A stretch of DNA of 64,000 bases, taken from positions 62,001 to 126,000 of the forward strand of contig JAFMVE010000007.1 of assembly GCA_025499705.1 (NCBI GenBank), given 5' to 3'. Numbering within the stretch: the first letter of the stretch is position 1; each line of letters begins with the position of its first letter. The position numbers and the translations under genes are program-made. Below are positions 19,897 through 42,794 of this stretch, in pieces. The notes beneath the pieces were generated by a model. That model was not told where the DNA came from. It did not search any database and saw nothing but the letters and a program-made list of their open reading frames with translations. The DNA comes from Carboxylicivirga caseinilyticus (GTDB lineage: Bacteria; Bacteroidota; Bacteroidia; Bacteroidales; Marinilabiliaceae).

Positions 19897-19919
19897 CAGG
19901 TATCTATTTACGATACCTG
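19897..19919 (-). terminator. Hairpin spanning the GH3 stop codon
   Basis: Perfect 8-bp stem (CAGGTATC at 19897-19904, GATACCTG at 19912-19919). The TAG stop of the GH3 gene (19904-19906) straddles the loop edge. On the transcribed minus strand the tail is only weakly T-rich, so it ends or stabilises the 28015-19904 operon mRNA. Confidence 0.5.
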
Positions 19920-22219
19920 CTTACTCTATCATCATTGATTACTCCACTAAAATTCAATCCGTACCCAAAGTCATATGTATTTCCTTCACTATCGGTATAA
20001 CATTTCATATCATGTGCTTTATCTTCAAACTGTTCTTCTACAGTCTTCATATTCTCTGGCAACTGAAATGGAAGCAAACCACTCGGTGCTGTTTTTCCAC
20101 TTAATATATCCAGAATAGCCTGATGTTGTACACCCATATGCATTAATATACCATCTGCCAACGGCTCAATTTCTGACATTACCATTGGTTTCGAAGCATG
20201 AACAATAACAATAACCGGCTTATTGCCCATTGCCTTTTTGGTATCACGCACCATATAGTAATCAAAAACATTATTTGTTTTCACCGTTTTCCCTTTGTAT
20301 GATCGGTTTTCAAAATCCTCAAACGGACTGCCACCAGCAATACTTTGCTCTCTGGCATATGTTGCTGTGTAATCATTGTATTGAAGACTGACAGGAACAT
20401 ATCCATTTCCACCTTTAGTCAAATCATTTTTGTCATACCCTGCTCCTCCATCCGGATTGCGAATACCAACTAATGCAAAATCAGCTTCTTTAGGATCATC
20501 AACCACATCGTAATATTCTTTTACCTTATCCATATTAAATGGATATTCATTCTTCTCAGGATATGCCATTCCAAACCAGTTTACTCCTCCGGGGGTGTAA
20601 CGCATTGGAACATAAACCTTCAATCTTTCTTTTATAGGAAGTGTCTGCGCCTTGTTTTTCAACATCACAACCGACTTTAGTTGTGCATCATAACCCTTCT
20701 TCATGAAGTCCGGATTACCAACAACCTCTTGTGTTTTTTCAACATCCAGATAAGGATTTTCAAATAAACCAACACGAAAAACATTGCGCAAAAGTCTTAG
20801 TGCCGAAGCCTCAAATCGCTTTCGCATTGCTTCTTCTCCAAATTTATCAACTCCCATCTGATAAGCTTCCAATACCGGACCCATTTCGTTGTTTCCTCCA
20901 AACTGATCCACTCCGGCTTCAATGGCCTTAAAATGACGTTCAGCTACAGAAAGCTTTTCAACTCCCCAGCATTTTCCTTCGAACGCATCAACCGAATGAG
21001 CATCAGCCGTAATCATCCAATCAGTACAAACCACTCCATCGTATTGATATTTTTCTCTTAACAGATCAGTAATCAAATACTTATTATATGAGTTTCCTAC
21101 TTTATCATCATTCACCTTATCCTGATCGAATGAAATAGTATAATAGGGCATTACAGCCGAAGCCATTTGAGTTCCACCTTTTAATTTAAAAGCACCTTCG
21201 GTAAATGGTTTCAAATGATCTTTCAGGTTATTTCCAGGATAAACAGCATAAGCTCCATAACCATAATGAGCATCTCTACCACCTTCTTCAGGGCCACCAC
21301 CAGGCCAATGTTTTACCATGGCATTAACACTTGTCATTCCCCAACCGTTCTGAATTTCATCTTCTCCGTAAGAAGTTTGAAAACCATCTACATAAGCTCG
21401 GGCCATATCCGTTGTTAATTCAGGATCTTCTCCCATGGTTCCATCAAAACGACTCCAGCGAGGCTCTGTTCCCAAATCGATCTGAGGAGATAAAGCAGTT
21501 GCAATTCCTAAAGCTCTGTACTCCTGAGAAGCAACTTCGCCAAATTCCTTCATAATTTCAGGATCAAAGGTTGCAGCTAATCCTAATGTACTTGGCCACA
21601 TCGAGATCTTACCACCCGCACCGGCATTGTATTCAGCATATGAATCGCTTCCATGACGTGGATCAGAACTAATATTGATTGGAATTCCCAATCCAATACC
21701 TTCAACCAAAGCCTGCGCATTATTATTCCATTGTGCAGCAACTGCAGGTGATTCAACTGAAGTAATCAATACATGACGAAGATGATCATCAGTTAAAAAT
21801 ATTTTTTGTTGATCCGTCAGATCACTTGCCTGCATGCCACTTTCGCTAAAAACTTTACCATTATATGTACCTCCGTACCTACCCTGAACCAAAACCGGTA
21901 TTGCCTGATGACCACTGTAAAGCATCAGTCCGGCCATTTGTTCAACACTCATTTTACTAATTAAATATTTGGCTCTTTCATCTGCTGATAAGCGCCAGTC
22001 TTCATATGGATCGAGGTGGCCATTTTTATTTAAATCCTTAAATGCAAAACGACTGCTTTCAACAAGCTTCACTCCTGAATTTACAGAATATCCAAGTGTT
22101 GGTCCGTTTTCATTAATTAAATATACAATCTCATTGTTTTCCTGTACGCTATATTTAGGCTGGCAGGAAATTAAAGAAGAGATCAGGGATAAGAGCAATA
22201 ATGTTGGGAGTAATCGCAT
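19904..22219 (-). CDS. Glycoside hydrolase family 3 lipoprotein (beta-glucosidase/xylosidase type)
   Basis: 771-residue GH3 exo-hydrolase, retaining mechanism, exported. The lipobox is SLISC (Cys19), followed by non-acidic QPKYS, so a periplasmic inner-leaflet position is more likely than the surface. An EF-hand-like loop (FKDLNKNGHLDPYEDWR, residues 60-76) precedes the (beta/alpha)8 domain, as in a distinct GH3 clade. The nucleophile is Asp400 in VVCTDWMITAD; substrate-site blocks SSDPRHG and KHWPGGGPEEGGRDAH are present. The C-terminal domain lacks the usual fibronectin-like tail and ends at GYGLNFSGVI. It is the last gene of the operon divergent from the second Nudix regulator. Substrate linkage cannot be told from sequence. 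Confidence 0.9.
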   Translation of the reverse strand: MRLLPTLLLLSLISSLISCQPKYSVQENNEIVYLINENGPTLGYSVNSGVKLVESSRFAFKDLNKNGHLDPYEDWRLSADERAKYLISKMSVEQMAGLMLYSGHQAIPVLVQGRYGGTYNGKVFSESGMQASDLTDQQKIFLTDDHLRHVLITSVESPAVAAQWNNNAQALVEGIGLGIPINISSDPRHGSDSYAEYNAGAGGKISMWPSTLGLAATFDPEIMKEFGEVASQEYRALGIATALSPQIDLGTEPRWSRFDGTMGEDPELTTDMARAYVDGFQTSYGEDEIQNGWGMTSVNAMVKHWPGGGPEEGGRDAHYGYGAYAVYPGNNLKDHLKPFTEGAFKLKGGTQMASAVMPYYTISFDQDKVNDDKVGNSYNKYLITDLLREKYQYDGVVCTDWMITADAHSVDAFEGKCWGVEKLSVAERHFKAIEAGVDQFGGNNEMGPVLEAYQMGVDKFGEEAMRKRFEASALRLLRNVFRVGLFENPYLDVEKTQEVVGNPDFMKKGYDAQLKSVVMLKNKAQTLPIKERLKVYVPMRYTPGGVNWFGMAYPEKNEYPFNMDKVKEYYDVVDDPKEADFALVGIRNPDGGAGYDKNDLTKGGNGYVPVSLQYNDYTATYAREQSIAGGSPFEDFENRSYKGKTVKTNNVFDYYMVRDTKKAMGNKPVIVIVHASKPMVMSEIEPLADGILMHMGVQHQAILDILSGKTAPSGLLPFQLPENMKTVEEQFEDKAHDMKCYTDSEGNTYDFGYGLNFSGVINDDRVSRYRK

Positions 22220-22328: not shown

Positions 22329-23882
22329 TTAGTCTTTAATGTTTTTGAATATGGATTCTATCAAATTCAACTCATCAAGATGAGGTAATTCTTTCATTTC
22401 TGTTTTTTCACCAAGAATCATTGCCTGGTGCATTTCTTTTGTATATGGTTTCCAGATTGGTAGTTGATCACGATTGGGATTGCCATTTCTTGCAAAATTG
22501 ATCCAGTATGATGACATTATTTTTTCAAGTTGATAATCTGTTTGCGTCCATGGTCTTATTGAACTTTTATCAAGATTACAATAAGCATAAGAAACTTCAC
22601 TTGTATGAAATGCCCCAAAATCCTGCTGTCCTTCTCCATATGGCACCGAACGATTAAAAAAATACACAAACGCAGGTGATGATTCTTTTTGATTTTGTAA
22701 TTCAGCCCATTTGTATGCCTGAATACCAAATGTTTGCAAACCACTTAACATTATCTGAGAAGCTTGCGCTATAGAATCATTCTGAGCTGGAAAAACTTCC
22801 AAGAATTCGGATGCCCTTTCACCATATTTTTGTTCGCATTCATTTTTAAAATCAGCTGCTGATTTTAAAGGACCTCCAAAATTTCCTTCATTGGCATTCC
22901 AGCCCAATAAAACAGGAACATCATTCTGCTCACCATTAGTAAAAATAGAATGAACATCTTTTGGCAGAACATATCCATCAACAACGGGTATACTCATTGA
23001 TCCTAATTTCAGTAAGCTATCTGCTGGCATTGCACGAAAATCAGCAATAGATGTAATTTCCAAGTGCTCACCCAACTCCTGATTCACAGATTCGGCAATG
23101 ACTAAGGTATTTCCCATCGATAAACGATTGGTTGACATTACAGCACCACCACTTTCAGCAATGGCTCTGTGGAATAAACCTTTTGCCAAAGGTGAAGCTA
23201 CAAGATAATTAACACTGAATGCACCTGCCGACTGACCAGCAATGGTTACATTATCCGGATCTCCACCAAACTCTCCAATGTTATCTCTCACCCATTTTAA
23301 AGCTGCAATCTGATCCAGCAAACCATAGTTACCCGATGTTCCGGAAGCAGCTTCTTTACTCAACTCAGGATGAGCAAAAAAACCAAATATTCCAACCCTG
23401 TAATTAATGGTTACAAAAACAGCACCTTTGGCAGCCATATTAGCTCCATCATAAATTGGCACTGAACCCGAACCACTTGAAAAACCTCCGCCATGAATAA
23501 ATACAATAACCGGTTGTTTCTCTTCTTTTTTAGCCGCAGTCCATACATTCAGATACAAACAATCTTCGCTCAATGGTTCAGCAGGAGCAATAAACTCCTG
23601 TGTCCACATTAAGAAAGGTTGAGGGGTAAATTGCATGGCACTGGCAGAAAACGCTGTACAATCGCGCACACCATCCCATGAATCAACCGGCTGTGGGGCC
23701 TTCCAACGCAAATCACCAACCGGTGGTTTTGCAAACGGAATACCTTTATATGCAAAGACTTCGGTGTCAGGTAAATATTTACCTGACACTAAGCCTCCAC
23801 AAACTTTCACAACCTCAACTTGTTCTTTTTCGTTACAACAGGCTGTTGCTAATAATAATATGAAGAAAAAGCGAATGACCAT
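22329..23882 (-). CDS. Type B carboxylesterase (exported)
   Basis: 517-residue alpha/beta-hydrolase of the carboxylesterase type B family. The catalytic serine is Ser218 in GQSAGAF, the oxyanion hole is HGGGF (130-134), and the paired blocks SEDCLYLNVW and the C-terminal FGAFHTSEVSYAYC give the histidine region. A short hydrophobic N-terminus ending ATACC could be a lipobox, but it is atypical. It starts 5 bp after the GH3 gene upstream. In this setting it would release acyl or aromatic esters from glycans, although family members also hydrolyse unrelated esters. Confidence 0.9.
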   Translation of the reverse strand: MVIRFFFILLLATACCNEKEQVEVVKVCGGLVSGKYLPDTEVFAYKGIPFAKPPVGDLRWKAPQPVDSWDGVRDCTAFSASAMQFTPQPFLMWTQEFIAPAEPLSEDCLYLNVWTAAKKEEKQPVIVFIHGGGFSSGSGSVPIYDGANMAAKGAVFVTINYRVGIFGFFAHPELSKEAASGTSGNYGLLDQIAALKWVRDNIGEFGGDPDNVTIAGQSAGAFSVNYLVASPLAKGLFHRAIAESGGAVMSTNRLSMGNTLVIAESVNQELGEHLEITSIADFRAMPADSLLKLGSMSIPVVDGYVLPKDVHSIFTNGEQNDVPVLLGWNANEGNFGGPLKSAADFKNECEQKYGERASEFLEVFPAQNDSIAQASQIMLSGLQTFGIQAYKWAELQNQKESSPAFVYFFNRSVPYGEGQQDFGAFHTSEVSYAYCNLDKSSIRPWTQTDYQLEKIMSSYWINFARNGNPNRDQLPIWKPYTKEMHQAMILGEKTEMKELPHLDELNLIESIFKNIKD

Positions 23883-23887: not shown

Positions 23888-26326
23888 TTATTTCTGAGAT
23901 AATTTATTGATTTCTTTTACTGGTGCCAATGCATTTGACACAGTTTCTACAACAATCGCTTCAGGTACTGTAAATTGATTAGTTCCCTGAATATTCTGAC
24001 ATGAGCTACCAATCAACACATCGTAAGCTCCTTCTTCAGCTACCCACGATGATGAATTTGTATCAAACGAAGCAAGATCTTTAGTTACAACATCAAAAGT
24101 AAGTATTTGTGACTCACCTGGCTGAAGTAATTTAGTTTTACCGAAGTTGATCAAAGTAGCTTCTGGTTTTTCCATTTTATTTGAAGGAGCATGTAAGTAA
24201 ACCTGTACAACTTCTTTACCTGCCACATCTCCTGTATTGGTAACTTCAACAGACACTGTTAGTTTACCATCAAATACTTCTTTATCAGCTTTGATATTGT
24301 CGTATTTGAAAGTTGTGTATGATAAACCGTAACCAAATGAATAAGCAACTGGCACATTAAATGTATTGTAGTAACGATATCCTACATAAATATCCTCTTC
24401 GTGGAATACTTCCCATGGCACACGTTTCATAAATGAGAATCCGGAAAGATCTTCTGCATCATCAACATCACCAGCAATCTCATGACCAGGGAATGTTGTA
24501 TGAGTCGGAGCATCATCATAAGAAACAGGGAAAGTAATTGCTAATTTACCTGATGGATTAACTTTACCGGTTAAGATATCTACAACCGAGTTACCACCTT
24601 CCTGACCACCTTGCCAGGCCAATAATACAGCATCAGGAATATTTTTCCATGAAGCCGTTTCGATAACACCACCTACGTTAAGTATCACAATTACTTTTTT
24701 ACCAACAGCATGATATGCATCAGAAACCGTTTTGATCATTCCTTTTTCTGTTGCAGTAAGGTAGAAATCACCTTCAATTGGCTTACGATCACCACCTTCA
24801 CCAGAATTACGACCGATGGTAATTAAAGCTACTTCTGAAGCTTCAGCCATTTTCTTAGCTAGCTTAGAACTTACGTCCATTTCTGCAACAGGAACTTTTC
24901 CACCCATCAAAACAGTCAACCAGTTATCTGATTTTTTACCTTTAGCCTGCTCTTGTTTAATATAATCTTTGTATGTAGCTGCAAGCTCATCATTCACACT
25001 GATGTTACCATTAGCCAAACCTTCCATTAACGAAACGGTATACGCCTCATTAACATCACCACTACCAGTACCACCTGCAATAAAATCGTAAGAAGTAGTA
25101 CCAAAAACTGCAGCATTTTTAACTTCAGATGCCAAAGGAAGTGTTTTACCACTGTTTTCCAGCAATACCATACCTTCGGTTGCAGCCTGACGAGTTATTT
25201 GTGCATGAGCCTCCAAATTTGGTTTGTTACTGTTTTGATATCCTTTAAACTTAGGTGATTTGAACATAATTTTAAGGATACGATTAAGGTTTTGATCCAA
25301 AACAGCTTCATCCAGTTTACCTTCAGTAACCGCAGCAATTAATGTCTCTGTTTGCTCAGGAGTACCAGGCATAATCATGTCATTACCAGCTTTCATCTGA
25401 GCAACAACATCGCTACCTCCACCCCAGTCGGTCATTACATATCCTTCAAATCCCCAGTCATCACGAAGAACTTTAGTAAGTAGATCATGACTCTCTGAAG
25501 TATAAACACCATTTAATTTGTTATATGATGACATTACTGTCCATGGCTGAGATTCTTTAACAGCAATTTCAAATCCTTTCAAATAGATTTCGCGTAAAGC
25601 ACGCTGACTAACATTGGCATCAACCGACATACGGTTTGTTTCCTGGTTATTAACCGCATAATGTTTGATAGATGTTCCTACTCCATTAGACTGAACACCA
25701 TTTACCATAGCAGCTGCCATTTTACCGGTTACCAAAGGATCTTCTGAGTAATACTCAAAGTTACGACCACATAATGGATCGCGTTGGATATTCATACCCG
25801 GAGCCAATAATACATCAGCACCATATTCCAACACTTCGTTACCCATAGCTTTACCTACGTTATATACTAATTCAGTATCCCATGTTGAAGCCAAAACGGT
25901 TGCAATCGGGAAAGCTGTACAGTAATAAGTAGCATCATCATTTCTGCGTTTCGGTTGAATACGTAAACCTGCAGGACCATCAGCCAATACCTGAGAAGTA
26001 ATATTCAATTCAGGATATTCTGATGAAAAACCAGCTGCACCCGGCAAATAGGTTCTGATATGATCTACCATATCATGGTAAACGGTATCATTTATTACTT
26101 TTTCAGGCTGAGGAAACATTGCTTTAATAGAATCAGGTAAATCCATAAACATACCTGTTCCGATCAAAAGCTGAGCTTTTTGCTTCAAATTCATTTTTGC
26201 CACAATTTCAGCGGCCTCTTTCTCACCCGGTTCTGTTACTTTTGGTGCAGTACAATTAAAAAAGAAAGCTGACATTAAGAGAAAAGACATCCCTTTTAGT
26301 CCACTACGATAAATAGATTTTTTCAT
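23888..26326 (-). CDS. Glycoside hydrolase family 3 beta-glycosidase with C-terminal fibronectin-like domain
   Basis: 812-residue GH3 enzyme with the full three-domain order. The (beta/alpha)8 domain (about 40-345) has LADGPAGLR, KHYAVNNQETNR and nucleophile Asp300 in GYVMTDWGG. The alpha/beta sandwich (about 380-640) contains IGRNSGEGGDRKPIEGDF. A fibronectin type III-like domain (about 700-780) contains NTGDVAGKEVVQVYLHAP. The N-terminus is a signal peptide, perhaps a lipoprotein type (FFFNCTAP). The sequence is closest in pattern to beta-glucosidases, but xylosidase or mixed activity is possible. It lies between two carboxylesterase genes, with gaps of 5 and 18 bp, in one operon. Confidence 0.93.
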   Translation of the reverse strand: MKKSIYRSGLKGMSFLLMSAFFFNCTAPKVTEPGEKEAAEIVAKMNLKQKAQLLIGTGMFMDLPDSIKAMFPQPEKVINDTVYHDMVDHIRTYLPGAAGFSSEYPELNITSQVLADGPAGLRIQPKRRNDDATYYCTAFPIATVLASTWDTELVYNVGKAMGNEVLEYGADVLLAPGMNIQRDPLCGRNFEYYSEDPLVTGKMAAAMVNGVQSNGVGTSIKHYAVNNQETNRMSVDANVSQRALREIYLKGFEIAVKESQPWTVMSSYNKLNGVYTSESHDLLTKVLRDDWGFEGYVMTDWGGGSDVVAQMKAGNDMIMPGTPEQTETLIAAVTEGKLDEAVLDQNLNRILKIMFKSPKFKGYQNSNKPNLEAHAQITRQAATEGMVLLENSGKTLPLASEVKNAAVFGTTSYDFIAGGTGSGDVNEAYTVSLMEGLANGNISVNDELAATYKDYIKQEQAKGKKSDNWLTVLMGGKVPVAEMDVSSKLAKKMAEASEVALITIGRNSGEGGDRKPIEGDFYLTATEKGMIKTVSDAYHAVGKKVIVILNVGGVIETASWKNIPDAVLLAWQGGQEGGNSVVDILTGKVNPSGKLAITFPVSYDDAPTHTTFPGHEIAGDVDDAEDLSGFSFMKRVPWEVFHEEDIYVGYRYYNTFNVPVAYSFGYGLSYTTFKYDNIKADKEVFDGKLTVSVEVTNTGDVAGKEVVQVYLHAPSNKMEKPEATLINFGKTKLLQPGESQILTFDVVTKDLASFDTNSSSWVAEEGAYDVLIGSSCQNIQGTNQFTVPEAIVVETVSNALAPVKEINKLSQK

Positions 26327-26344: not shown

Positions 26345-28015
26345 TTATTCCAATAATTTTCTAGCTTCTCTATCCGGATCATTCTTAACAACAGAAGTAT
26401 CGTTTAATACCATTGTTGCTCCTTTTTCCGGTGTATACCTTGGCCACTCAGGCAAACCTCCGCCATTTGGATTACCGTTTTTCATAAAACGAATTAAGGT
26501 TTGGCTCATTTTATCCGACAATTCTCTTGGTCGACTTCCGCCTCCTGTATGGGTAAACATACGATCGGTATTATTAAACCAAAAGCAGATATCCAAACAA
26601 TGGAATGCTCTCATGCGATTATTGAACATTGGAGGTTCCCAACCAAACCAGGCCATATAAACAGGTGCATCCTGCGAGGCTTTTGCATTTGCTGTTTCAA
26701 TGGCACTTTTTCGATTACTGACAATCAGAGTCATTATTTCAATGGGCTTTGCTTTCGGAAATACCTTTTCATAAGCGTTATAAACAGGTTCAGCTTTATC
26801 ACCCAAACCTCCGCTAAAACCGGCACGTTCGGTAAGAAAAGCAATTGCGTTTTCTTTAGTAATAGCTTCCAGTTCCGCATTATTTCGGCTCATCGACCAT
26901 TCATGAAAAGTGGTACTAATAAGCATAGGCACATCAGAAGATAAGCCTTTTACATCAGAATAGAAGGATTCAAGCGGTAAGTTTCTTCCGTCAGCTACAG
27001 GTCCGAAACCTCCTCTGAATGAATTTCCTCCTGGATTTTCTTCCATGTAACGGCGTGATGCTTTATTTGCAATATCAATATATTCGCGCCAGCTAAGCTC
27101 CTGCAGTTTATCAACCTCCGAAGCTTGCAAACCGGCTTCTTCAATTATATACTGTCCTAATTTTTTCGATACCTTCTGATCTTTTCCTGCAAGTGTTGAT
27201 CCACTTAACGGAACTGCTTTATGAAATAATCCTTTGGCTTTTTTCATAGCGGTTAAAGTACACACTTTAGCTCCTCCACCGGATTGCCCCATAATAGTTA
27301 CATTGCCCGGATCGCCTCCAAACTCAGCGATATTATCTCTAACCCACTCTAAGGCTGCTACCATATCCAAAGCCCCAACATTTCCTGAATCAGCATATTT
27401 AGCATCGCCACTAACCGACAAGTCTGAGAATCCGATTGGACCTAGACGATGATTGATTGAACAGAAAACCACATCCCCTTTTCTACAAAAGTTTTCTCCA
27501 TCGTATCCATCCTGTTCATATCCATTACCGTTAGTATATCCACCACCATGAAGCCATACTAAAACAGGTCGTTTTTTACTATCTTTAATAGCTGGTGTCC
27601 AAACATTAAGCCTTAGACAATCCTCGCTAACATCATCGTAATTCCAGTGATCAACAAACGAAGCAAAATTATTAGCATATCGGTTATCCATGATCTGAGG
27701 AGCTGTATTACCCCACCAAACAGCCGGATAGGTTTCTTTCCAAGGCCGAGGTTTTTGTGGTGGCATAAATCTGTTTTTACCACTTGTATCTGCCCCATAA
27801 GGTATACCCCTGAACTGAAAAATACCTCTCAGAATAAAACCCTGCACTTTGCCGTATTGTGTTTGTGCAATGGCAATATCATCACCGACTACCAGTTGCT
27901 GATCATCAGAGATCATCTTCTCTGACACCATGGTAACCTGTGAAAACGATGATAATCCGAGACCAGCGGCTCCAATGCCTACCGTCTTGAAAAAATCTCG
28001 TCGGTTTTTTTTCAT
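26345..28015 (-). CDS. Type B carboxylesterase with Tat signal
   Basis: 556-residue carboxylesterase type B. The N-terminus KKNRRDFFKTVGIGAAGLGLSS is a twin-arginine signal, so the folded enzyme goes to the periplasm. Catalytic Ser245 lies in MGQSGGGAK, the oxyanion loop is HGGGYTNG (156-163), and SEDCLRLNVWTP is conserved. It is the first gene of the operon 28015-19904 and is divergent from the Nudix-type regulator. It is probably a periplasmic aryl/acyl esterase acting on imported oligosaccharides; this role is inferred from context. Confidence 0.9.
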   Translation of the reverse strand: MKKNRRDFFKTVGIGAAGLGLSSFSQVTMVSEKMISDDQQLVVGDDIAIAQTQYGKVQGFILRGIFQFRGIPYGADTSGKNRFMPPQKPRPWKETYPAVWWGNTAPQIMDNRYANNFASFVDHWNYDDVSEDCLRLNVWTPAIKDSKKRPVLVWLHGGGYTNGNGYEQDGYDGENFCRKGDVVFCSINHRLGPIGFSDLSVSGDAKYADSGNVGALDMVAALEWVRDNIAEFGGDPGNVTIMGQSGGGAKVCTLTAMKKAKGLFHKAVPLSGSTLAGKDQKVSKKLGQYIIEEAGLQASEVDKLQELSWREYIDIANKASRRYMEENPGGNSFRGGFGPVADGRNLPLESFYSDVKGLSSDVPMLISTTFHEWSMSRNNAELEAITKENAIAFLTERAGFSGGLGDKAEPVYNAYEKVFPKAKPIEIMTLIVSNRKSAIETANAKASQDAPVYMAWFGWEPPMFNNRMRAFHCLDICFWFNNTDRMFTHTGGGSRPRELSDKMSQTLIRFMKNGNPNGGGLPEWPRYTPEKGATMVLNDTSVVKNDPDREARKLLE

Positions 28016-28067
28016 TTTTTTGGATTTAATTTGTACTACTTTTAAGGTTTATCTACATTCGCAAAAC

Positions 28068-28090
28068 CATTGCGTCTTTGTGACACAATG
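28068..28090. promoter_or_regulatory. Gapped palindrome between the divergent Nudix regulator and esterase/GH3 operon
   Basis: CATTGCGTC (28068-28076), spacer TTTGT, GACACAATG (28082-28090): 9-bp arms with one mismatch. It is centred between the operon start (28015) and the regulator start (28164). The 8+8 core CATTGCGT-N5-TGACACAA is repeated exactly upstream of susC at 51290-51310. Best explained as the operator of the Nudix-type regulator. Confidence 0.65.
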
Positions 28091-28163
28091 ATACTCAGAT
28101 TTTCTTAAACATCAAAAAAAAGCGATTAATATTTTTTAATTATTTTAGCATAAAATTATAGCT

Positions 28164-28907
28164 GTGACAGACATTACAAACCAAGATATTATTCCTAATA
28201 TTTCTGTTGATTGTGTTATTTTTGGTTTTCATGAGAATGAACTAAAAGTTTTCCTATTAAACTATACAGGTACCAACCTTTGGGCCTTACCAGGTGGATT
28301 TATAGAAAAAAACAAAACCATAGAGGAAGCTGGAGCAGACATTTTAAAAGAAAGAATAGGATTAGAGAATATATTTCTCAAACAATTTGATGTTTTTAGT
28401 AATCCTGAACGTTCAAAACACGCACCTGAGATACTGGAACTAATTAAAAAAATTGGCAGATACGATGTGTCCGTTTTCCAATCAAGATTTATCTCAATTG
28501 GATTGTATGCTTTGTTAGATCACACAAAAGTCACAACAACACTTGATAGATACTCCGACAAATCCAAATGGGTTGCCATTGATAAGGTTAAAAACACTAT
28601 TCTTGACCACAAAGAGATTATCAATACTGCTTTAAAAACTCTTCGTTTACAAATAAGCTATACTCCGATAGGTTACAACCTGTTACCACAAAAGTTCACA
28701 ATGCCCGAAATGCAAAGTCTGTATGAAACGATTCTTGGTAAGAAGTTGGATAGACGTAACTTTCAGCGCAAGATGAATGCCTATAATATACTGAACAAGC
28801 TGGATGAAAAGCGTGAAGGCGTGGCTCACAAAGCTCCGTTTTTGTATGAGTTTAACCAAGAGAATTATAAAGAAGCCTTAAAGAACGGATTTAACAACAG
28901 TTGGTAA
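28164..28907 (+). CDS. Second Nudix-fold transcriptional regulator (AraR/NrtR type)
   Basis: 247-residue paralogue of the AraR-like protein at 4746-5438: Nudix-like sensor domain (about 10-165) plus winged-helix domain (about 175-240, KFTMPEMQSLYETIL and FQRKMNAYNILNKLDEK). The Nudix box is degenerate (after GGF the helix reads DILKERIGL in place of REUxEExGU), so it should sense a ligand. Compared with the first copy it carries about 20-25 extra residues after SNPERSKHAPE, ahead of RFISIGLYALL. The start is GTG 28164; no ATG lies upstream in frame. Divergent to the GH3/carboxylesterase operon and flanked by the esterase island, it is the only transcription factor in the PUL region and therefore its likely controller. 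Confidence 0.85.
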   Translation: MTDITNQDIIPNISVDCVIFGFHENELKVFLLNYTGTNLWALPGGFIEKNKTIEEAGADILKERIGLENIFLKQFDVFSNPERSKHAPEILELIKKIGRYDVSVFQSRFISIGLYALLDHTKVTTTLDRYSDKSKWVAIDKVKNTILDHKEIINTALKTLRLQISYTPIGYNLLPQKFTMPEMQSLYETILGKKLDRRNFQRKMNAYNILNKLDEKREGVAHKAPFLYEFNQENYKEALKNGFNNSW

Positions 28908-29016: not shown

Positions 29017-30054
29017 TTAGTTGTCACTAAAAATCAGGTATGAATTAAAAAATGGTAACATCTGGTTAGGTATACGACCGTCTTTTGTATAAATATTATT
29101 CACATGTGTTCCAATATATTCCTCTGCAAAATGTTTGACTCCCACATTTTCTAATTTCTGGCTAAACATCTTACATTGAATAGTAAATCTATCACCAGCA
29201 TTTCTTCCCCAATCTAATTTTATCGCCTTCAACTTATTTAAATTATCCAGATAAGCATCAACCATGTATAAAGGCATATTTTCATACCACAACTTCAGAA
29301 CATCCTGATTGATGGTCATTTTTCCATCGGTATATTCAAATGGCACATCGCAATAAAATGGTGGATTCTCCGGATTTGGAGACCATGATTTACCAAAGGC
29401 AACAATTACCTTTCCAAAGTAAATTTTATTTAAATCTTCCTGCGTCTTTACATCTGCAAAATCTTTATAAGTTGTACTGTTAGGGCCATATTCTCTGACT
29501 ATTGCCAAAGCTCCGGGACTTAATGCATAAACACTGCTGAATAGTTCAGGATGACGCATGGCTATTTTAAGAGCTCCATATCCACCCATACTATGTCCGG
29601 TAATACCACGACTTTCAGGTTTAGCAATTGTGCGGTATGTTTTATCCATGTATTTCACCAGGTCGAAGGCAGTAAAATCTTCCCAATTGCCAAATAACTG
29701 ACTATTACTATAGAAACTGCCATCATAGGTAGTTTTCTGATCAGATATAACAAGAATAAAAGGTCGTATTTTATTGGTCGTAATTGAATAGTCCAGTATA
29801 TCTGACATAAAGTCTAACATTTTATCATCTCCTGTAAATCCATGCAGAAAATAGATGACCGGATAGCGCTGCTGACTATTGCTATATCCCGGAGGAAGAT
29901 ATACAGAGACGGCGCGGTTTGGATCCTCTCCATAGCTATTTTCAAGATTTTTCGAATAAATAGTATCGGTTATAACCGTTCCTTTATCGACTTGGGCAAC
30001 TCCTGTAGAGTAAGCACTTAGCAGCAGCAAGAATAATACAATAAGATGTTTCAT
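29017..30054 (-). CDS. Exported esterase, CE1/esterase D type
   Basis: 345-residue alpha/beta-hydrolase with a signal peptide ending GVAQ. Catalytic Ser155 is in GHSMGGYG, the oxyanion region is YFLHGFTGDD, and a late histidine lies in EYIGTHVNN. It differs from the other CE1 enzymes here, which carry AGLSMGG rather than TGHSMGG and a GGHTW histidine motif, so it is an outlier that may have a different acyl preference. It is the last gene of the 35260-29017 operon segment, after a Tat-exported carboxylesterase. A likely role is acetyl or feruloyl removal from oligosaccharides. Confidence 0.85.
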   Translation of the reverse strand: MKHLIVLFLLLLSAYSTGVAQVDKGTVITDTIYSKNLENSYGEDPNRAVSVYLPPGYSNSQQRYPVIYFLHGFTGDDKMLDFMSDILDYSITTNKIRPFILVISDQKTTYDGSFYSNSQLFGNWEDFTAFDLVKYMDKTYRTIAKPESRGITGHSMGGYGALKIAMRHPELFSSVYALSPGALAIVREYGPNSTTYKDFADVKTQEDLNKIYFGKVIVAFGKSWSPNPENPPFYCDVPFEYTDGKMTINQDVLKLWYENMPLYMVDAYLDNLNKLKAIKLDWGRNAGDRFTIQCKMFSQKLENVGVKHFAEEYIGTHVNNIYTKDGRIPNQMLPFFNSYLIFSDN

Positions 30055-30110
30055 AATCAGTACTTCGTTTCAATGAAGGTGTATGTTAATTTAAAAATTG
30101 CTTCAATTTA

Positions 30111-31766
30111 TTAGATTGATTGACTTGCCAAATATCTCCACATGTCTATTTCTCTCTTATAACGATTATTTAATAATGAACATACTGTATCAATGCGCAT
30201 CGTAGGTCTTGACTCTAAATTATATGGTTCCCATTCTGGTTGTCCCTTCGCTATTGGTTTGCTGTTGCGGGCAAAAGAAGTCCAGAGTTGGCACATATTA
30301 TCAGCCGCCTCAAATCGTTCAGGCCGTTTTCCAGCCATCCCGTTACTAATATTGTAAAATTTAAACGGAATATCCATAGCGTGCATTGAACCAAAAGCAT
30401 AATCAGTGCCAGGCACTTTTAATTCCGATTTATATCCAAAATTATACAAATAAGCAGGAGCACCACCTTGTTTCACTTTTTGCTCAGCAATAGTGATAGA
30501 GCCCAGACCCATAAACTGGATAGAGCGAATCGCAATATATATTTCTGCAGGTGTTGCAGAAGGATTCGCCTTTAGATAAGTTTCTAAAACTAATGCTGCT
30601 TTCTCTCCAAACTCAGCCTGCAGCTTTTCTTCCAGACCTTTTCTATCAAGTGTAAAAACAGATGTATCGCCACCGTACATGGCAAAGAAAATAAACTCGT
30701 CTTCGTTCCATCCGGTAATTAAAGGTTTATCTTTTGAAATATCAGGAGCAGTTGGATCAAAAGGATGATTGGGTAACACAATACCATCAACAACAGGGCC
30801 GAAGGCATTGGTGCCTATTGAACCTATTCCCATAAAACCACCTCTCATTGTGCCATCCACAGGAGTACGCTGAAGTGCTAATTGGGCATCCAGTATTTGC
30901 TGAGGTGACATCTCAAGTAGTTTCTGCCAGTTGTTTTTGGCAATTCCAAGCTGTTTCATCAACATCTCGGTGGTGACAGCAGCCTCATCAGCTGTTTTTA
31001 TGATTACTCCCGGTCCACTCTCGATAGAAGCTTTATTGAAATAAGGTGCTGCCTGAGGCATAGCATACAAGCAGGATGTTTTCATTCCTCCACCCGATTC
31101 TCCAAAAATCATCACATTATCAGGATCTCCTCCAAACTCTGCAATGTTATCGTTTACCCATTGCAAGGCAAAGGCAATATCCTGAACTCCTCTGTTTCCT
31201 GATCCTTTGAATTCACCTCCTGCAACCTCATCCAAATAAAGATAACCCAACAAGCCCAATCGATGATTGGTTTCAACCACAACTACATTATATCTTTGAG
31301 CAAGGTTAGCTCCATCCTGCATGGCGCTACCTCCGGAGCCGGTTACAAAACCACCTCCATGACTATAAAACATTACAGGACGTTTTTGGTTATCGTTTGC
31401 AGGAGTCCAAATATTTAAAACCAGACAATCTTCATCGGGTAGTGGTTCATCTATACCATAGGTCTGATTAGGAGGTTGAATCGAAGGTGCCCCTAATCGA
31501 TTGGCATCTCTTACTCCGGTCCACGGCTTCAGTTTACCAGGGGTAAGAAACCGACGTTCTCCGGAAACTTTACCAGCATAAGGAACCCCTTTAAAGATAG
31601 AGACACCGTTTAACCGATAACCTTTTATCTTACCATAAGCAGTATTGGATATAACATCTGTTTTGGATTGAATAACATTGGCCATCACTCGGTTTGACAT
31701 AAATGCTGAAGCTGCCATACCAGCTGCTGTTAATCTGATAAATTGTCTTCGGTTAAACGATTTCAT
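30111..31766 (-). CDS. Type B carboxylesterase with Tat signal (second copy)
   Basis: 551-residue carboxylesterase type B with twin-arginine leader NRRQFIRLTAAGMAASAF. Catalytic Ser224 lies in FGESGGGMKT, the oxyanion loop is SHGGGFVTG (135-143), and EDCLVLNIWTP and the histidine region YAFGSMHAMDIPF are conserved. It is related to the esterase at 26345-28015 but clearly diverged, so it is not a recent duplicate. Gaps of 55-56 bp to both neighbours suit one operon. Confidence 0.9.
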   Translation of the reverse strand: MKSFNRRQFIRLTAAGMAASAFMSNRVMANVIQSKTDVISNTAYGKIKGYRLNGVSIFKGVPYAGKVSGERRFLTPGKLKPWTGVRDANRLGAPSIQPPNQTYGIDEPLPDEDCLVLNIWTPANDNQKRPVMFYSHGGGFVTGSGGSAMQDGANLAQRYNVVVVETNHRLGLLGYLYLDEVAGGEFKGSGNRGVQDIAFALQWVNDNIAEFGGDPDNVMIFGESGGGMKTSCLYAMPQAAPYFNKASIESGPGVIIKTADEAAVTTEMLMKQLGIAKNNWQKLLEMSPQQILDAQLALQRTPVDGTMRGGFMGIGSIGTNAFGPVVDGIVLPNHPFDPTAPDISKDKPLITGWNEDEFIFFAMYGGDTSVFTLDRKGLEEKLQAEFGEKAALVLETYLKANPSATPAEIYIAIRSIQFMGLGSITIAEQKVKQGGAPAYLYNFGYKSELKVPGTDYAFGSMHAMDIPFKFYNISNGMAGKRPERFEAADNMCQLWTSFARNSKPIAKGQPEWEPYNLESRPTMRIDTVCSLLNNRYKREIDMWRYLASQSI

Positions 31767-31821
31767 CTCATTAATAAGTTAAGTTATTGATTAAGGTTAT
31801 CTAATCTCAATCCTAAATTTC

Positions 31822-32994
31822 TTACTTGAAAAGCAAAGGTGCAAATGTATTCAGGTAAACTCTCCAGTTTGCCCATGTGTGACCACCTTCCGTAACAAAG
31901 AAAGTATGTTTTAAACCATTCTCTGTTAGCTTAGCATCCAGTTTCTTAGCACTTTCCCACACAAAATCTGTTTTACCGCAAGCCAACCAATACATTTTAT
32001 AACCAGCTTCCTTTAATCCTTTTAGCTTATCATCAATTTCTGGTTGCTCACCCCAGATTCCCATACTTAAAGGACAGATATACTGGAACATTCCCGGATA
32101 TTCATTGGCAGTTGAAATGGTATGGCCACCACCCATCGACAAGCCTGCAATGGCACGATGATCAGCATCAGCAATTACTCTGAAATTACTTTCTACATAA
32201 GGAACGATATCTTTTACAATGCTGTTTACATACAAATTACGATTGGCAGGATCTCTGAAATCCAATTCCGATTGAGGTAATTTAGTTGTTATTGCAGCCA
32301 TCTGATTTGGGTTACCGTTTGGCATCACACAAATCATTGGTTCAGCTAATCCTTTTTCAATCAGGTTATCTAAAATCTGACGGGTACGTCCCATGGTGCT
32401 CCAGGCATCTTCGTCACCACCGGCACCGTGCAGCAGGTATAAAACAGGGTATTTTTTACCACTGGTTTCATAACCATATGGTGTATAAACAAACATACGA
32501 CGGTTTAAACCCAACGTTTTTGAATCGTACCAAACCTGATGCATATCTCCTCTTTTGTTAGCTTCAAAATAGTTTTCAGTCTTTTCCCCGGGAACCAATA
32601 AAACACTTAAGTAACGTGTTCCATCGCGTTGCAACAAAATATTGCTGGGATCATTAAGCGTTAAACCATCCACAATAAAGCTATAGGTATATAATTCGAC
32701 TGCGGGAACAGGCATTGTAATTGACCAAAGACCATTTTCATCTTTTGTCATATCGACCGCACTTGGAACATCCATTTCGCCAAACTGCGTTTTCATTTTA
32801 ACAGTCGGTGTAAAACCACCCATTATTTTTACTGAATCGGCTTCAGGAGCCATCAGTCGAAACGTCACTTCCGTTTCCGTAATTTCAGGAGAAATAATGG
32901 GTTTTTGGTTCCAAAAGTTTGACAATTCCTGTGCGAAAGTTCCACCACATATGGTCAACATAAGGACCAACATTAACAGCTTATTTTTTTTCAT
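31822..32994 (-). CDS. CBM48-CE1 esterase (feruloyl/acetyl esterase type)
   Basis: 390-residue exported esterase with signal peptide (ends GGTFAQ). An N-terminal E-set/CBM48 domain (about 35-135; TFRLMAPEADSVKIMGGFTP, YSFIVDGLTLNDPSN) precedes a CE1 catalytic domain (about 150-390). The triad is Ser286 in AGLSMGGG, Asp343 in CGKTDFVW and His372 in GGHTWANWR. This architecture includes characterised feruloyl and acetylxylan esterases of gut Bacteroidota. It lies in a run of esterase genes and would de-esterify arabinoxylan-type side chains; the acyl specificity is not readable. Confidence 0.92.
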   Translation of the reverse strand: MKKNKLLMLVLMLTICGGTFAQELSNFWNQKPIISPEITETEVTFRLMAPEADSVKIMGGFTPTVKMKTQFGEMDVPSAVDMTKDENGLWSITMPVPAVELYTYSFIVDGLTLNDPSNILLQRDGTRYLSVLLVPGEKTENYFEANKRGDMHQVWYDSKTLGLNRRMFVYTPYGYETSGKKYPVLYLLHGAGGDEDAWSTMGRTRQILDNLIEKGLAEPMICVMPNGNPNQMAAITTKLPQSELDFRDPANRNLYVNSIVKDIVPYVESNFRVIADADHRAIAGLSMGGGHTISTANEYPGMFQYICPLSMGIWGEQPEIDDKLKGLKEAGYKMYWLACGKTDFVWESAKKLDAKLTENGLKHTFFVTEGGHTWANWRVYLNTFAPLLFK

Positions 32995-33028
32995 ACTTTA
33001 AATTTAAATATTAATATTCAAAGGATTA

Positions 33029-35260
33029 TTATATTTTAAACGTATGTACATACTTAACCATCAGCATCCGATTAAAAAATGAGATCGGCTCCACCTGGTG
33101 AAAATCATATGTTTTATCCGGTCGTGATTCATTATACACAATGTATAAATCTTTTCCTTCAGCGGGATTATATCTGAACCGAAAATTACCGCTTATAGCA
33201 TGACTAACACTATTGTACTGTACAAAGGAGCTAATAGACAACTTGGTATTAAGCATCACCAAGGCTTTAAATTTAGCCAGATGACTCACAAATTCCTGTT
33301 CGCGCGTATTAAAAGTTAGTTTGTTTAAACTATATGAAGTTGTTAACTGTAAAGAGGAGGAGAGATTAAAAACCGGACTTATGCTTAATGATAATTGCCC
33401 ACCGTCGTAGTAGCCACCGGCAGTAGCTATTAAACCACACGAAACAGGTTTAGATATGGGTGAAGATAATACATTGAAGCTGGAAAGAAACTGATAATTA
33501 CCGGCTGGCACATAAGCATCCTGACTCAAGTAGAAATCAAAGTCAAACCCTTCGAACTTATTAAACAAGTATGAACTTAAACTCCAGCCACTCTTTGTCA
33601 TCAAACTGAACCCTGGGTACCAATAGGCCGACTCTAACTCTTTCGTCGTCACAAATTCATTGTAGGTACCTGTAACCAGTAATTTAAAATTATACAGGGG
33701 CGAGTTTTCCCCGAAGATCCAACCATATTGTGTTTTTAAATAGGTGCCCTCTACCCCCAGCTTTGATACAAAGCCCACGCTCGGACTAAACTGAGTACCC
33801 GAATAGGTATAGTTGAGGTTGTAGGCAAACCCGGCGTCTCTTCTTCGTTCCCATTTAACAGTAGCAAACGATAAATCATTATTAGCCAGCATAGCCGTTC
33901 CGTCTGCATCGGTATTTTGAGCCACACGTGCTTCCAGGTAATCATCGCCAAACAATTTAATAACGGCATCCACCCCATAGGCCATACCTTTTGAACCATC
34001 AACACCCAAACGCGTTGTGGCCATAGCACCCACATACGAATTAGGGTTGAGCACCTGACGTCTTAAACGGTAAACTCCAAAATTTTCCGATGGCGTCGAC
34101 TCAAAGGCCTCCGTTTGCATATTCAGGATACCTACATCCCATTTGCCAATACGGCCAGTTAATCGTCCACCCCCATAAATGGTCACCGGTTGCCCGTTGG
34201 CCAAACCAATGCGTCTACTGTAAAACAGCTGCTGGCTCCCGCCCAGTGAAAATTGGAAAATACTGGATCGCTCCTGAAAGAATTGTCGTTTATCGGCCAG
34301 ATACAGTGAATAGCGCGTGATATTAACCAATTCATCGTCCGCTTCGGCCTGCGCAAAATCGGTATTAACCGTTAAATCAAGCGTGAGGTTACTGTTGATG
34401 TTATATTTAACATCCAGTCCACCTGTTAAATTTGAAGTTTTGTTTAAATCATACTTTGTGCCTGTTTCATTCAACTCGTGAATCTGGGTTAAACCCGTTA
34501 AGGCATATGGACTGATAAGCAATGGCTTGGAAGGCTCCACATTTTCCAGACTCACCGTTGTTGCCTGCGAGGGTTTGATGGCCGCATAAATCCCATACTG
34601 TGGGTCGATGGCCGGGTATGTATTTATCTCGTTGCAATAACTAATCGTTCGATTAACAATAAGGCCCATCTCTGTTTTGTCACCTATTGATTGAAAGCGC
34701 AAACTGGAAAAAGGAATACGCATGGTGACGTACCAGCAATTCCCTTCTACTTTAGATTTGACATCCCAAAAGGTATTCCAATTGTAATTAACCGTTCCTG
34801 TTGTTCCCACTGAATAGTTTCCATCATTTGCCATGGCATAATCGATGCGCTGTCCGGTAGGGGAAGTGAAAAAAGCCAGGGCACTTTCGTTGTCATTATA
34901 GGTATCCAGTATAATACCAAATGCATCAGAACTTTTAGATTCTTCATCACGCTTTTTACTATTTGCAACAATATTATCAGGATTCTTATAATACAATCGT
35001 GCAAATACCCACAAATAATCCTGTGTATATAACAGTCTTACATCTGATTTCTCACTTGGCTCCTTACCAAAGATAGGTTTATGCATTGTTAAATCAATTG
35101 GTGTCGCCTTTTGCCAGATTTCATCACTGATTGTAGCTGTTAGTTCAATTTTTTCAAGCGATGTGGATATAGCAATGGCATTCGCATAGGCCTCCTTATT
35201 CACCAAGAGGAAAACTAATAAACCAACTACAATATATTTTATAAATTTCTTTTCAATCAT
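33029..35260 (-). CDS. DUF5916 outer-membrane protein with N-terminal CBM9-like domain
   Basis: About 743 residues from ATG 35260 (MIEKKFIKYIVVGLLVFLLVNKEAYA, a good signal peptide). The open frame reaches back to 35398, but the extra 46 residues would put a Cys-rich stretch ahead of the signal peptide, so the shorter start is preferred. An N-terminal CBM9-like domain (about 40-200; ISDEIWQKATPIDL, DVRLLYTQDYLWVFARLYY, DAFGIILDTYND) is followed by a long beta-barrel-like region as in DUF5916 proteins. The function of the family is unknown; an outer-membrane or surface sugar-binding role is suggested. Its place inside an esterase operon is unusual. GC content looks slightly higher than in its neighbours. 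Confidence 0.82.
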   Translation of the reverse strand: MIEKKFIKYIVVGLLVFLLVNKEAYANAIAISTSLEKIELTATISDEIWQKATPIDLTMHKPIFGKEPSEKSDVRLLYTQDYLWVFARLYYKNPDNIVANSKKRDEESKSSDAFGIILDTYNDNESALAFFTSPTGQRIDYAMANDGNYSVGTTGTVNYNWNTFWDVKSKVEGNCWYVTMRIPFSSLRFQSIGDKTEMGLIVNRTISYCNEINTYPAIDPQYGIYAAIKPSQATTVSLENVEPSKPLLISPYALTGLTQIHELNETGTKYDLNKTSNLTGGLDVKYNINSNLTLDLTVNTDFAQAEADDELVNITRYSLYLADKRQFFQERSSIFQFSLGGSQQLFYSRRIGLANGQPVTIYGGGRLTGRIGKWDVGILNMQTEAFESTPSENFGVYRLRRQVLNPNSYVGAMATTRLGVDGSKGMAYGVDAVIKLFGDDYLEARVAQNTDADGTAMLANNDLSFATVKWERRRDAGFAYNLNYTYSGTQFSPSVGFVSKLGVEGTYLKTQYGWIFGENSPLYNFKLLVTGTYNEFVTTKELESAYWYPGFSLMTKSGWSLSSYLFNKFEGFDFDFYLSQDAYVPAGNYQFLSSFNVLSSPISKPVSCGLIATAGGYYDGGQLSLSISPVFNLSSSLQLTTSYSLNKLTFNTREQEFVSHLAKFKALVMLNTKLSISSFVQYNSVSHAISGNFRFRYNPAEGKDLYIVYNESRPDKTYDFHQVEPISFFNRMLMVKYVHTFKI

Positions 35261-35409
35261 TTCTACTGCATTAACACCGCATCTACATAAGCATCTGATA
35301 GTTATCAACCAATCAACAACTCTCAATGTGCATAAAATGAGGCATACACCATCCTTTGGCACATCAGCAAGGATGAACCCTAATTCTATTCTCGACAATA
35401 ATTAATTTG

Positions 35410-35428
35410 GTTAAGTAGATAACTTAAC
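35410..35428. promoter_or_regulatory. Perfect gapped palindrome upstream of the DUF5916 gene
   Basis: GTTAAGT (35410-35416), 5-nt spacer, ACTTAAC (35422-35428), about 150 bp upstream of the chosen DUF5916 start. The geometry (dyad with N5 spacer) is the same as the AraR-type sites but the sequence differs. Candidate operator. Confidence 0.35.
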
Positions 35429-35438
35429 GGATGAGTAA

Positions 35439-35482
35439 AAGGTGGTTTACAGCACTGGTTAATCAAAACTGAAAACCACCTT
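35439..35482 (-). terminator. Hairpin after the amidohydrolase gene
   Basis: AAGGTGGTTT (35439-35448) pairs with AAACCACCTT (35473-35482) with a 24-nt loop, 29 bp downstream of the amidohydrolase stop on the minus strand. Weak T tail; probably a partial terminator. Confidence 0.5.
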
Positions 35483-35510
35483 GCTCCTTTAATTTTAGTG
35501 GATTAATCTT

Positions 35511-36494
35511 TTACTCAGGCCACTCAAAATCGTCTTTATCCATACGGAAAAAGCGAGCTGCATTGTTAAATAAAATATCACGTTTTTGATCTTCGGATAG
35601 GTATTGAGCATGCTCAATTACTCCCATTGAAGTTTCGAATAAACGAGGCCACATCATAAAATCGGTTCCGTACATAATCCGTTTTCCGAATCCGGCCTGT
35701 ACTAATCGTTTAATATAAGCATGAACTTCATCCAAAGGATAGCTCCAGATCATTCCTGAAATATCAACATATACATAAGCATTGGCTCCCATTAATGCGA
35801 TCATATGATCGGCCATAGGATAACCGGCATGCATCACCCATATTTTTAACTTGGGATGACGTGCCAATAAATCTTCCAATAAAAAAGGATCACCTAAAGA
35901 AGCTCTGTATTTGGGCTGTGTAAGATTGGCCATGCCGTTTCCTCCTGTTCCCATATGGATACCTGCAGGAATATTTAATTCTTCAGCAACTGCAAAATAA
36001 GGATCTAGGGTCATATCGCTTGGCGACATCCCCTGGTATTGAGGAGCCACCTCAGCCATTACCTTATAAAATCCGCCTTCCAATGAATCACGAAACTGCT
36101 CAACGGTCAGTGTTCCCGGGCTTATTCCTGGAATAATTCTTCCTTTTGGAGCCGCATCAGCCCAATTGTGCAGTACCTCAGCATCACCAAACGCAATCAT
36201 TGTCATGTTAAAATCCTTAATGCGTTTGATAACTTCATCCTGCATGTGCTGGTCATTTTTAGCCGGCGGAAGTGGATCAACACAATCCTGGTTCATAAAG
36301 AACGGGGCCTGCTCGTTAGGATCAGCACCTGGCATATCAGACAAGAACCAGGGACACATCGATGACAACCAGGCCGGATTGACTTTCATGGTGTGCACAT
36401 GGACATCAAAAACAGGTTGCTTCGTTACTTTTTCCTGAGCAAAAGCACTTCCAGCTATGCAGCAGATTAATAATAGATTTAAGATTTTTTTCAT
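35511..36494 (-). CDS. Exported amidohydrolase (Amidohydro_2 family)
   Basis: 327-residue metal-dependent hydrolase with signal peptide (ends GSAFAQ). The TIM-barrel metal motif is FDVHVHT (30-35); later histidines are in GIHMGTG and VMHAGYPM, and the catalytic aspartate is in MYGTDFMMW. The family includes aromatic-acid decarboxylases such as gamma-resorcylate and 5-carboxyvanillate decarboxylase as well as lactonases and amidases. Periplasmic location is unusual for the decarboxylases. Among feruloyl-esterase-like genes, action on a released aromatic acid or lactone is an attractive but unproven idea. Confidence 0.85.
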   Translation of the reverse strand: MKKILNLLLICCIAGSAFAQEKVTKQPVFDVHVHTMKVNPAWLSSMCPWFLSDMPGADPNEQAPFFMNQDCVDPLPPAKNDQHMQDEVIKRIKDFNMTMIAFGDAEVLHNWADAAPKGRIIPGISPGTLTVEQFRDSLEGGFYKVMAEVAPQYQGMSPSDMTLDPYFAVAEELNIPAGIHMGTGGNGMANLTQPKYRASLGDPFLLEDLLARHPKLKIWVMHAGYPMADHMIALMGANAYVYVDISGMIWSYPLDEVHAYIKRLVQAGFGKRIMYGTDFMMWPRLFETSMGVIEHAQYLSEDQKRDILFNNAARFFRMDKDDFEWPE

Positions 36495-36540
36495 ATAAAA
36501 GATTTTATGGATTCTATATTTTATAAATAACGATCATGTG

Positions 36541-37680: not shown

Positions 37681-37689
37681 GATTGTGTT

Positions 37690-38544: not shown

Positions 38545-38584
38545 AATATTTTTTTTAAAAGCTAAAAGCCATTAGCTGATAGCT

Positions 38585-39448: not shown

Positions 39449-39490
39449 GATAAATTGATTTTGTTTTGTTACTAATTAATCGCTTGAAAA

Positions 39491-40348: not shown

Positions 40349-40393
40349 TTAATGGGATTTGATCTGTTACTGATTTAATTAAAAACAGAGATG

Positions 40394-40421
40394 ATGCTGC
40401 ACATATTAAACTGTGCAGCAT
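40394..40421 (-). terminator. Terminator after the GH3 gene
   Basis: ATGCTGCACA (40394-40403) pairs perfectly with TGTGCAGCAT (40412-40421) across 8 nt. On the minus strand it is followed by a GTTTTTAATT tail 6-15 nt on, between the GH3 gene and the MBL gene. Confidence 0.8.
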
Positions 40422-40441
40422 TTCTCTATAAGGGTTTATTA

Positions 40442-42625: not shown

Positions 42626-42681
42626 AATGAAGTCGATTATTTATTTAAGTTTGTTTTATGTCAGGTTAAAAGGAATAAAAA

Positions 42682-42719
42682 AAGCATTAAATGTGCTCTA
42701 ACCAGAACATTAAATGCTT
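42682..42719 (-). terminator. Intrinsic terminator downstream of the susC operon
   Basis: Stem of 13 bp with one mismatch (arms 42682-42694 and 42707-42719, 12-nt loop), followed on the minus strand by a run of T. It closes the 51135-42795 operon. Confidence 0.82.
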
Positions 42720-42753
42720 CTTAAAACGTTTCTTAAGTTATTTGAAACAAGAA

Positions 42754-42785: not shown

Positions 42786-42794
42786 CTTTATTAC

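Follow-up and report, generated by a model that had tools for sequence, protein, structure and literature searches.

A predicted NrtR-family operator shared by an esterase/GH3 promoter region and the susC promoter region of a PUL in Carboxylicivirga caseinilyticus

Two sugar-responsive regulators of the NrtR family, AraR and XylR, have been described in Bacteroidetes (PMC4666351, PMC3878776). The best structural match to the protein considered here is BtAraR (BT0354; PDB 5bs6/5dd4/5ddg/5deq), which is reported to join Nudix-like and winged-helix parts, to shift the BT0365 promoter in EMSA and to lose its DNA binding altogether in the presence of L-arabinose; the EMSA oligo contains AAGTGT-N7-ACACTT, and recognition of the GTGT motif is ascribed to K179, N181, K184 and the wing, R180 being intercalated (PMC4666351). 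The BT0365-60 operon, which includes two SusC/D pairs, is placed under AraR as well as under an HTCS (PMC3878776), and three B. thetaiotaomicron PULs are reported to be under dual AraR/HTCS control (PMC4666351). The initial annotation of the DNA analysed here had proposed that a Nudix-fold regulator controls an esterase-rich PUL, a wiring of which it knew no example for a PUL of this kind. Given that BtAraR binds the promoter of a SusC/D operon also under HTCS control (PMC4666351, PMC3878776), the reading of the regulator is right and the novelty of the wiring was overstated. XylR (BT0791), a predicted xylose regulator, belongs to the same family and phylum as the present protein, and XylR genes are reported to lie in clusters with xylose genes (PMC3878776, PMC4666351), none of which was recognised among ten annotated neighbour proteins of the clade studied here. 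The NrtR of NAD metabolism (S. oneidensis, 3gz5/3gz6) shares fold and domain order with the present regulator, but no NAD genes are found among the annotated neighbours of the latter and of its clade. The literature that was searched describes no NrtR clade linked to GH3 or esterase genes.

The window, that is, the whole 64-kb stretch of DNA that was analysed, contains the following features.

19904-22219, minus strand: second GH3 gene of the presumed divergent operon (annotation)
22329-23882, minus strand: carboxylesterase gene of the presumed divergent operon (annotation)
23888-26326, minus strand: GH3 gene of the beta-glucosidase type, whose family is the commonest neighbour of the regulator clade
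26345-28015, minus strand: COesterase carboxylesterase (Pfam), first gene of the presumed divergent operon
28068-28090, no strand: predicted operator 1, CATTGCGTC-TTTGT-GACACAATG, in the promoter region from which the regulator and the esterase/GH3 operon diverge
28164-28907, plus strand: NrtR-family regulator with a degenerate Nudix domain and a winged helix, GTG start, 247 aa
29017-46320, minus strand: the other 13 genes of the susC operon (Pfam, ORF positions)
37683-37701, no strand: one-mismatch weak site inside the susC operon, set aside
46354-47907, minus strand: susD (annotation)
47932-51135, minus strand: susC, heading a presumed 15-gene operon after operator 2 (annotation)
51290-51310, no strand: predicted operator 2, CATTGCGTTATATTGACACAA, of the form CATTGCGT-N5-TGACACAA

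The protein encoded at 28164-28907 matches NrtR_WHD (PF21906, 5.5e-24), AraR_C (1.8e-9) and NUDIX (PF00293, 1.2e-4), with the PF21906 and PF00293 matches both exceeding the cut-off, and its best PDB match is BtAraR (5bs6, E 5.2e-35). An N-terminal Nudix-like part followed by a C-terminal NrtR winged helix gives it the domain order of the NrtR family, so the proposal that the divergent gene encodes a Nudix-fold regulator holds. Its score against the NCBIfam NtrR model (100.3 bits) is below the cut-off of 400, and the Nudix catalytic signature is degraded (GGFIEKNKTIEEAGADILKERIGL versus GX5EX7REUXEEXGU, as the signature is given in PMC4666351). Relative to BtAraR, D178, R180 and N181 are kept, whereas K179 and K184 are both replaced by Arg. 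In the sugar pocket, R86 and H131 are kept in the window regulator and present in 52/52 aligned rows of its clade, where F129 is mostly Met or Leu; R34, which in BtAraR contacts O4 of arabinose, falls in a deleted loop, so that the AraR-subfamily combination of R34, R86 and H131 lacks its first member. Given these pocket changes (R34 loop deleted, F129 replaced), a sugar other than arabinose is likely. The araBAD-type arabinose genes do not adjoin the regulator, and the neighbours of its clade are GH3 and esterase genes, not araBAD as with BtAraR. Because of the GH3 context of the clade, the effector is probably glucose or a beta-glucoside and not arabinose.

The genome has five NrtR genes. 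One of them (C90) is followed by an MFS transporter gene and then a GH94 gene, and another (C11) has a galT-type gene downstream. The AraR-like gene at 4746-5438, ~23 kb from the regulator, has araA, an SSF transporter and an Aldolase_II gene as neighbours and is likely the AraR of this genome. In its product, Thr-Gly replaces K179-R180. Nor was an AAGTGT-type site found upstream of this gene. On both counts, the operator of this protein may be unlike the BtAraR one. In the tree, a group of 52 rows (support 100/97) unites the window regulator with its relatives; the C90 protein belongs to a different group, and the window's own AraR-like gene is separate too. The clade is distinct from AraR and apparently undescribed. 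An NrtR found beside an FGGY kinase (L182) falls in the other group of the trees, which were made without BT0791. Across 60 genomes, including its own, orthologue-like matches to the regulator were limited to G001 (59% identity) and G002 (56%), and the next matches reached at most 45%.

Operator 1 lies in a 148-bp gap (28016-28163) with divergent genes on either side, and its arms match at 8/9 positions, in agreement with the near-perfect symmetry described initially. Operator 2 lies 154 bp from the susC start and 394 bp from the PEPCK start, upstream of both genes. The two operators are identical at 16/16 specified bases, in spacing and in strand, just as the initial annotation had read their half-sites, spacing and orientation, and the outer bases of operator 2 are less symmetric than those of operator 1. 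The predicted operator has the GTGT-N7-ACAC geometry of the BtAraR site, with GCGT allowed in one arm, and differs from it by its TT/AA outer bases and by tolerating C or T in GYGT.

Shuffled sequence has on average 0.71 matches to CATTGCGT-N5-TGACACAA with up to three mismatches (sd 0.77, largest 3), whereas the window has four, namely the exact sites that start at 28068 and 51290, site 1 read in reverse, and a three-mismatch site at 37915. Throughout the 5.65-Mb genome, the 16-base pattern is found twice as an exact match (both in the window), never with one mismatch and three times with two, and the symmetric core TTGYGT-N7-ACRCAA is exact at two places, both again in the window. Since the search pattern was derived from the operator pair itself, this own-genome count would on its own be an unfair test. 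The reversed pattern served as control and gave 26 exact sites in ~105 Mb (21 genome sets, that is, 20 genomes with one counted twice). By arithmetic from this rate, the 569-bp susC/PEPCK gap would be expected to contain ~1.4e-4 exact matches, which speaks against a chance match there. For the core at one mismatch, the reversed pattern is the commoner one in the own genome (50 versus 24 for the real pattern), and so only exact sites carry weight there. Weak sites (up to three mismatches, or one in the core) were considered as further targets in the own genome and rejected: they are many, scattered and no more frequent than in the reversed control, so no further targets were called. The weak site at 37683-37701 is probably due to chance.

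Relatives of the regulator were gathered in a scan of named genomes (set 1, 52 loci, 36-60% identity) and in 296 genomes of the phylum (set 2, 29 loci). A site with at most one mismatch is present upstream of 37/52 regulators in set 1 (36 of them called by script and one, L114, with an exact site that the assumed start had masked; 37/53 by script with the window counted; the regulators of L115 and L116 are identical) and in 8/2080 letter-shuffled 460-bp pieces of the same loci. In set 2 it is present in 14/29 loci, or in 13/28 without L145, which repeats a locus of set 1. The site is lacking in 15/52 regulator promoters of set 1 and in 15/29 of set 2. As judged from these site counts, the palindrome is a conserved operator of the regulator's clade. 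The expected recurrence of the motif at orthologous promoters was thus borne out at the related regulators and failed at susC, as the operator was found within 1.5 kb upstream of 0/19 SusC homologues outside the window (these 19 are the ones given as loci, out of 33 found). Control of susC therefore looks specific to the lineage of the window. For the same reason, SusC homologues near NrtR genes elsewhere were dropped as support. Only one of the 19 is a close orthologue (60%), and its genome has a single match to NrtR, which groups with the sister clade. In G001 and G002, operator 1 is kept at the regulator, and a second site, CTTGGTGTC-N5-GACGCAAAG, lies 24 bp upstream of an esterase gene that adjoins GH42 and whose product is 83% identical to that of 42795-43991 of the window, its orthologue. 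The DNA similarity between the operator-2 regions of the window and of G001/G002 is not significant, so common descent of these second sites is unsupported.

The genes downstream of the two operators form an esterase-rich cluster. Between 19904 and 51135 there are in total seven PF00756 esterases, three carboxylesterases and three GH3, and Pfam recognised no endo-acting glycanase there. The part at 29017-46320 encodes the seven PF00756 esterases, one COesterase and one GH3, along with a DUF5916/CBM9-like protein, an amidohydrolase, a protein of metallo-beta-lactamase fold and one protein without Pfam match. The closest structure to the esterase at 42795-43991 is the ferulic acid esterase 6rzn (E 9.4e-99), and the window GH3 is closest to the beta-glucosidases 8idz and 2x40. 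This unusual esterase load is suggestive of an acylated beta-glucoside or phenolic ester substrate. The operator copy upstream of susC makes the esterase-rich PUL a likely target of the Nudix-type regulator, as was first proposed. Around the susC leader (50900-51800) no Rfam match was obtained, and an RNA-based explanation of the leader was set aside on this ground. A terminator-like hairpin with a T-run, antisense to susC, separates operator 2 from the susC start on the plus strand (51182-51205). A search for Bacteroidota -33/-7 promoters gave near matches only, and none that was clear at susC. Also, an ATP-type PEPCK gene (51705-53333) is located inside this polysaccharide cluster, and in the related locus of G018 an HTCS gene is found at the equivalent place.

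In other genomes, the neighbourhoods of the clade and the unlinked sites point to the same enzyme families. The commonest neighbour of clade regulators is GH3, present in 24/53 loci (window included, within nine genes), in most cases one or two genes upstream; a sugar-isomerase-like protein of 310 aa is found near the regulator in 17/53 loci, with many loci cut by contig ends. The regulon scan of 21 genome sets (20 genomes, as G209 = G432) gave 60 forward-pattern sites, the regulators' own sites among them, of which 14 were looked at, seven being fully symmetric and seven not. The fully symmetric TTGYGTC-N5-GACRCAA occurs away from the regulator at seven places in 5 of the 20 other genomes, and all seven (7/7) are at the starts of carbohydrate or ester genes. 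Four of them are upstream of GH3 homologues of 23888-26326 (four genomes, 48-50% identity) and look like two pairs of matching loci; the others precede a PF00756 esterase divergent from a cNMP-binding-domain gene, an AP_endonuc_2 sugar isomerase, and a divergent MFS / GFO-IDH-MocA pair. Among the seven less symmetric sites, four were assigned to genes: one is upstream of a carboxylesterase (L224), and three, at glutamate synthase, RmlD-like and aldolase genes, are probably chance occurrences. The AP_endonuc_2, GMC and GFO-IDH-MocA genes near operators elsewhere hint at a 3-keto-glucoside pathway; a literature search on this link found nothing. Two clade members from other families of the class (G265 and G233) lie 5-20 kb from SusC/D, GH3 and GH5 loci, with GH16 and GH30 genes annotated as well in G265, and by gene content these neighbourhoods fit a beta-glucan theme, short of proof.

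The closest SusC homologue is that of G018, whose locus has the order susC-susD-(SusE/F-position protein)-esterase-esterase-GH3, is homologous to the window PUL (SusC 59%, SusD 48%, esterases 54 and 57%, GH3 50% identity) and has an HTCS gene beside and divergent from susC. No GYGT-N7-ACRC site is present upstream of the G018 susC, whereas in the window the PEPCK gene and the NrtR-type operator occupy the place of the HTCS. In G717, an HTCS 43% identical to that of G018 lies two genes from a SusC 46% identical to the G018 one. The genome of the window has 18 matches to the G018 HTCS, the highest at 34% identity (partial) and the best full-length one at 30%, and none of the 18 adjoins the window susC. 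As the homologous PUL of G018 combines an HTCS beside susC with the lack of the operator, a swap of regulator in the lineage of the window is likely and, with a single close comparator, short of established. From sequence comparison, the NrtR-type regulator appears to have been recruited to susC recently and to have displaced an HTCS there. The initial annotation had put the Nudix-fold regulator in place of an HTCS or ECF sigma pair. This stands insofar as the annotated genes of 19904-63968 include none recognised as HTCS or ECF sigma factor, but not fully, since an HTCS gene lies just beyond the right edge at window coordinates 66641-70942 (G000:C123:128641-132942; L143), 15.5 kb from susC and adjoining another SusC/D pair, which makes dual control possible.

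The mechanism that we consider quite probable is as follows. The 28164-28907 protein would be a dimeric repressor of the NrtR family, from a clade apart from AraR, that uses its Nudix fold as sugar sensor. Without ligand, it would sit on operator 1 and keep its own gene and the esterase-GH3-esterase-GH3 operon off, and on operator 2 it would do the same for the susC-susD-esterase operon. The GH3 and esterase enzymes would release a small sugar, most likely glucose or a beta-glucoside, and its entry into the Nudix pocket would make the repressor leave the DNA, so that the whole cluster is induced jointly; the recruitment of susC would have replaced an HTCS. The protein family, the two operators with their conservation and common target families, and the AraR-like geometry are seen in the sequences themselves. 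We infer repression rather than activation, and release by the ligand, by analogy with AraR.

Under dual control, an internal sugar would act on the PUL through the NrtR repressor, and the outer oligosaccharide through an HTCS such as that at 66641-70942. Such a scheme would fit the position of this HTCS gene just past the window edge and has its precedent in the three B. thetaiotaomicron PULs mentioned above (PMC4666351). We regard it as rather unlikely for this PUL, as the HTCS is near its own SusC/D pair and a GH51-GH2-GH31-GH3-GH42 block, and in G001 and G002 the matching HTCS is beside the GH51-GH42 block, yet no window-type susC is present at the locus. The lack of the site at the 19 other SusC homologues and the less symmetric outer arms of operator 2 could also mean that the susC copy is a chance match and operator 1 alone is functional. 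The low number of exact matches expected in the gap (~1.4e-4), the status of this copy as one of only two in the genome, and the second site at the equivalent place of G001 and G002, upstream of the esterase beside GH42, render this improbable.

Operator 2 is within a shared divergent gap and might serve the PEPCK gene (51705) instead of susC. Its distance of 394 bp from PEPCK versus 154 bp from susC speaks against this, as does the position of symmetric sites elsewhere before carbohydrate or ester genes; moreover, the locus stretches fetched from G001 and G002 keep the second site and contain no PEPCK gene. We find this reading highly improbable. Finally, GTG-type palindromes suit several regulator families, and one unlinked site is beside a cNMP-binding-domain gene, as might be expected if the palindrome belonged to another factor, for instance a Crp-like protein. 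We consider this extremely improbable: the palindrome is upstream of the regulator in most clade members of set 1, many members of the sister clade have AAGTGT-N7-ACACTW in the corresponding place, and the motif predicted for Crp-like proteins in Bacteroides, TATGTTnTAnAACATA, is unlike the palindrome.

The conserved palindrome allowed the recognition helix to be compared with the site. The comparison covered 138 different NrtR proteins, drawn from L032-L066, L087-L138 and L144-L201, of which 81 have a readable recognition helix and an upstream GYGT-N7-ACRC site, for which the most symmetric site was taken per protein. In the 50 proteins with Arg at the K179 position, GYGT is preceded by T in 91/100 arms, and in the 29 with Lys it is preceded by A in 53/58 arms. 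All Lys-type arms are GTGT (58/58), whereas those of the Arg type divide into 61 GTGT and 39 GCGT. As read from the tree, this correlation mostly follows descent; L201, with Arg and TTGCGT inside the Lys group (surrounding forks with bootstrap 98-100 and SH-aLRT 73-74), is a probable independent parallel of the Arg/T pairing, and L120 and L124, with Arg and TAGTGT, are exceptions. The correlation suggests a simple DNA-recognition rule for the NrtR family, which may overlap with the earlier NrtR protein-DNA correlation work that PMC5045206 cites.

Taking these lines together, we tentatively propose a wider reading, which is possible and falls somewhat short of an even chance. A sugar-sensing NrtR repressor clade, spread over several Bacteroidota families, would run GH3 beta-glucosidase and esterase genes; in the lineage of the window, a single gained operator at susC would have let it take over an entire SusC/D polysaccharide locus in place of the outward-sensing HTCS seen at the homologous locus; and one residue of the recognition helix would limit cross-talk between NrtR paralogues, Lys (AraR-like) going with A before GTGT and Arg with T before GYGT. 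If true, the gain of one short DNA site can move the control of a PUL from an HTCS, a sensor of outer oligosaccharides, to a cytoplasmic sugar-sensing repressor, and predictions that pair PULs with a neighbouring HTCS or ECF sigma factor would miss such loci. In addition, the operator and its target list offer a testable regulon for an apparently uncharacterised NrtR clade in several Bacteroidota families.

In the sister NrtR clade, two same-family relatives (L266 and L267) have regulator-MFS-GH94 runs in the direction of susC-susD. The regulator is preceded by a site of the AAGTGT/TAGTGT type, and this is likely a cello-oligosaccharide locus under another NrtR.
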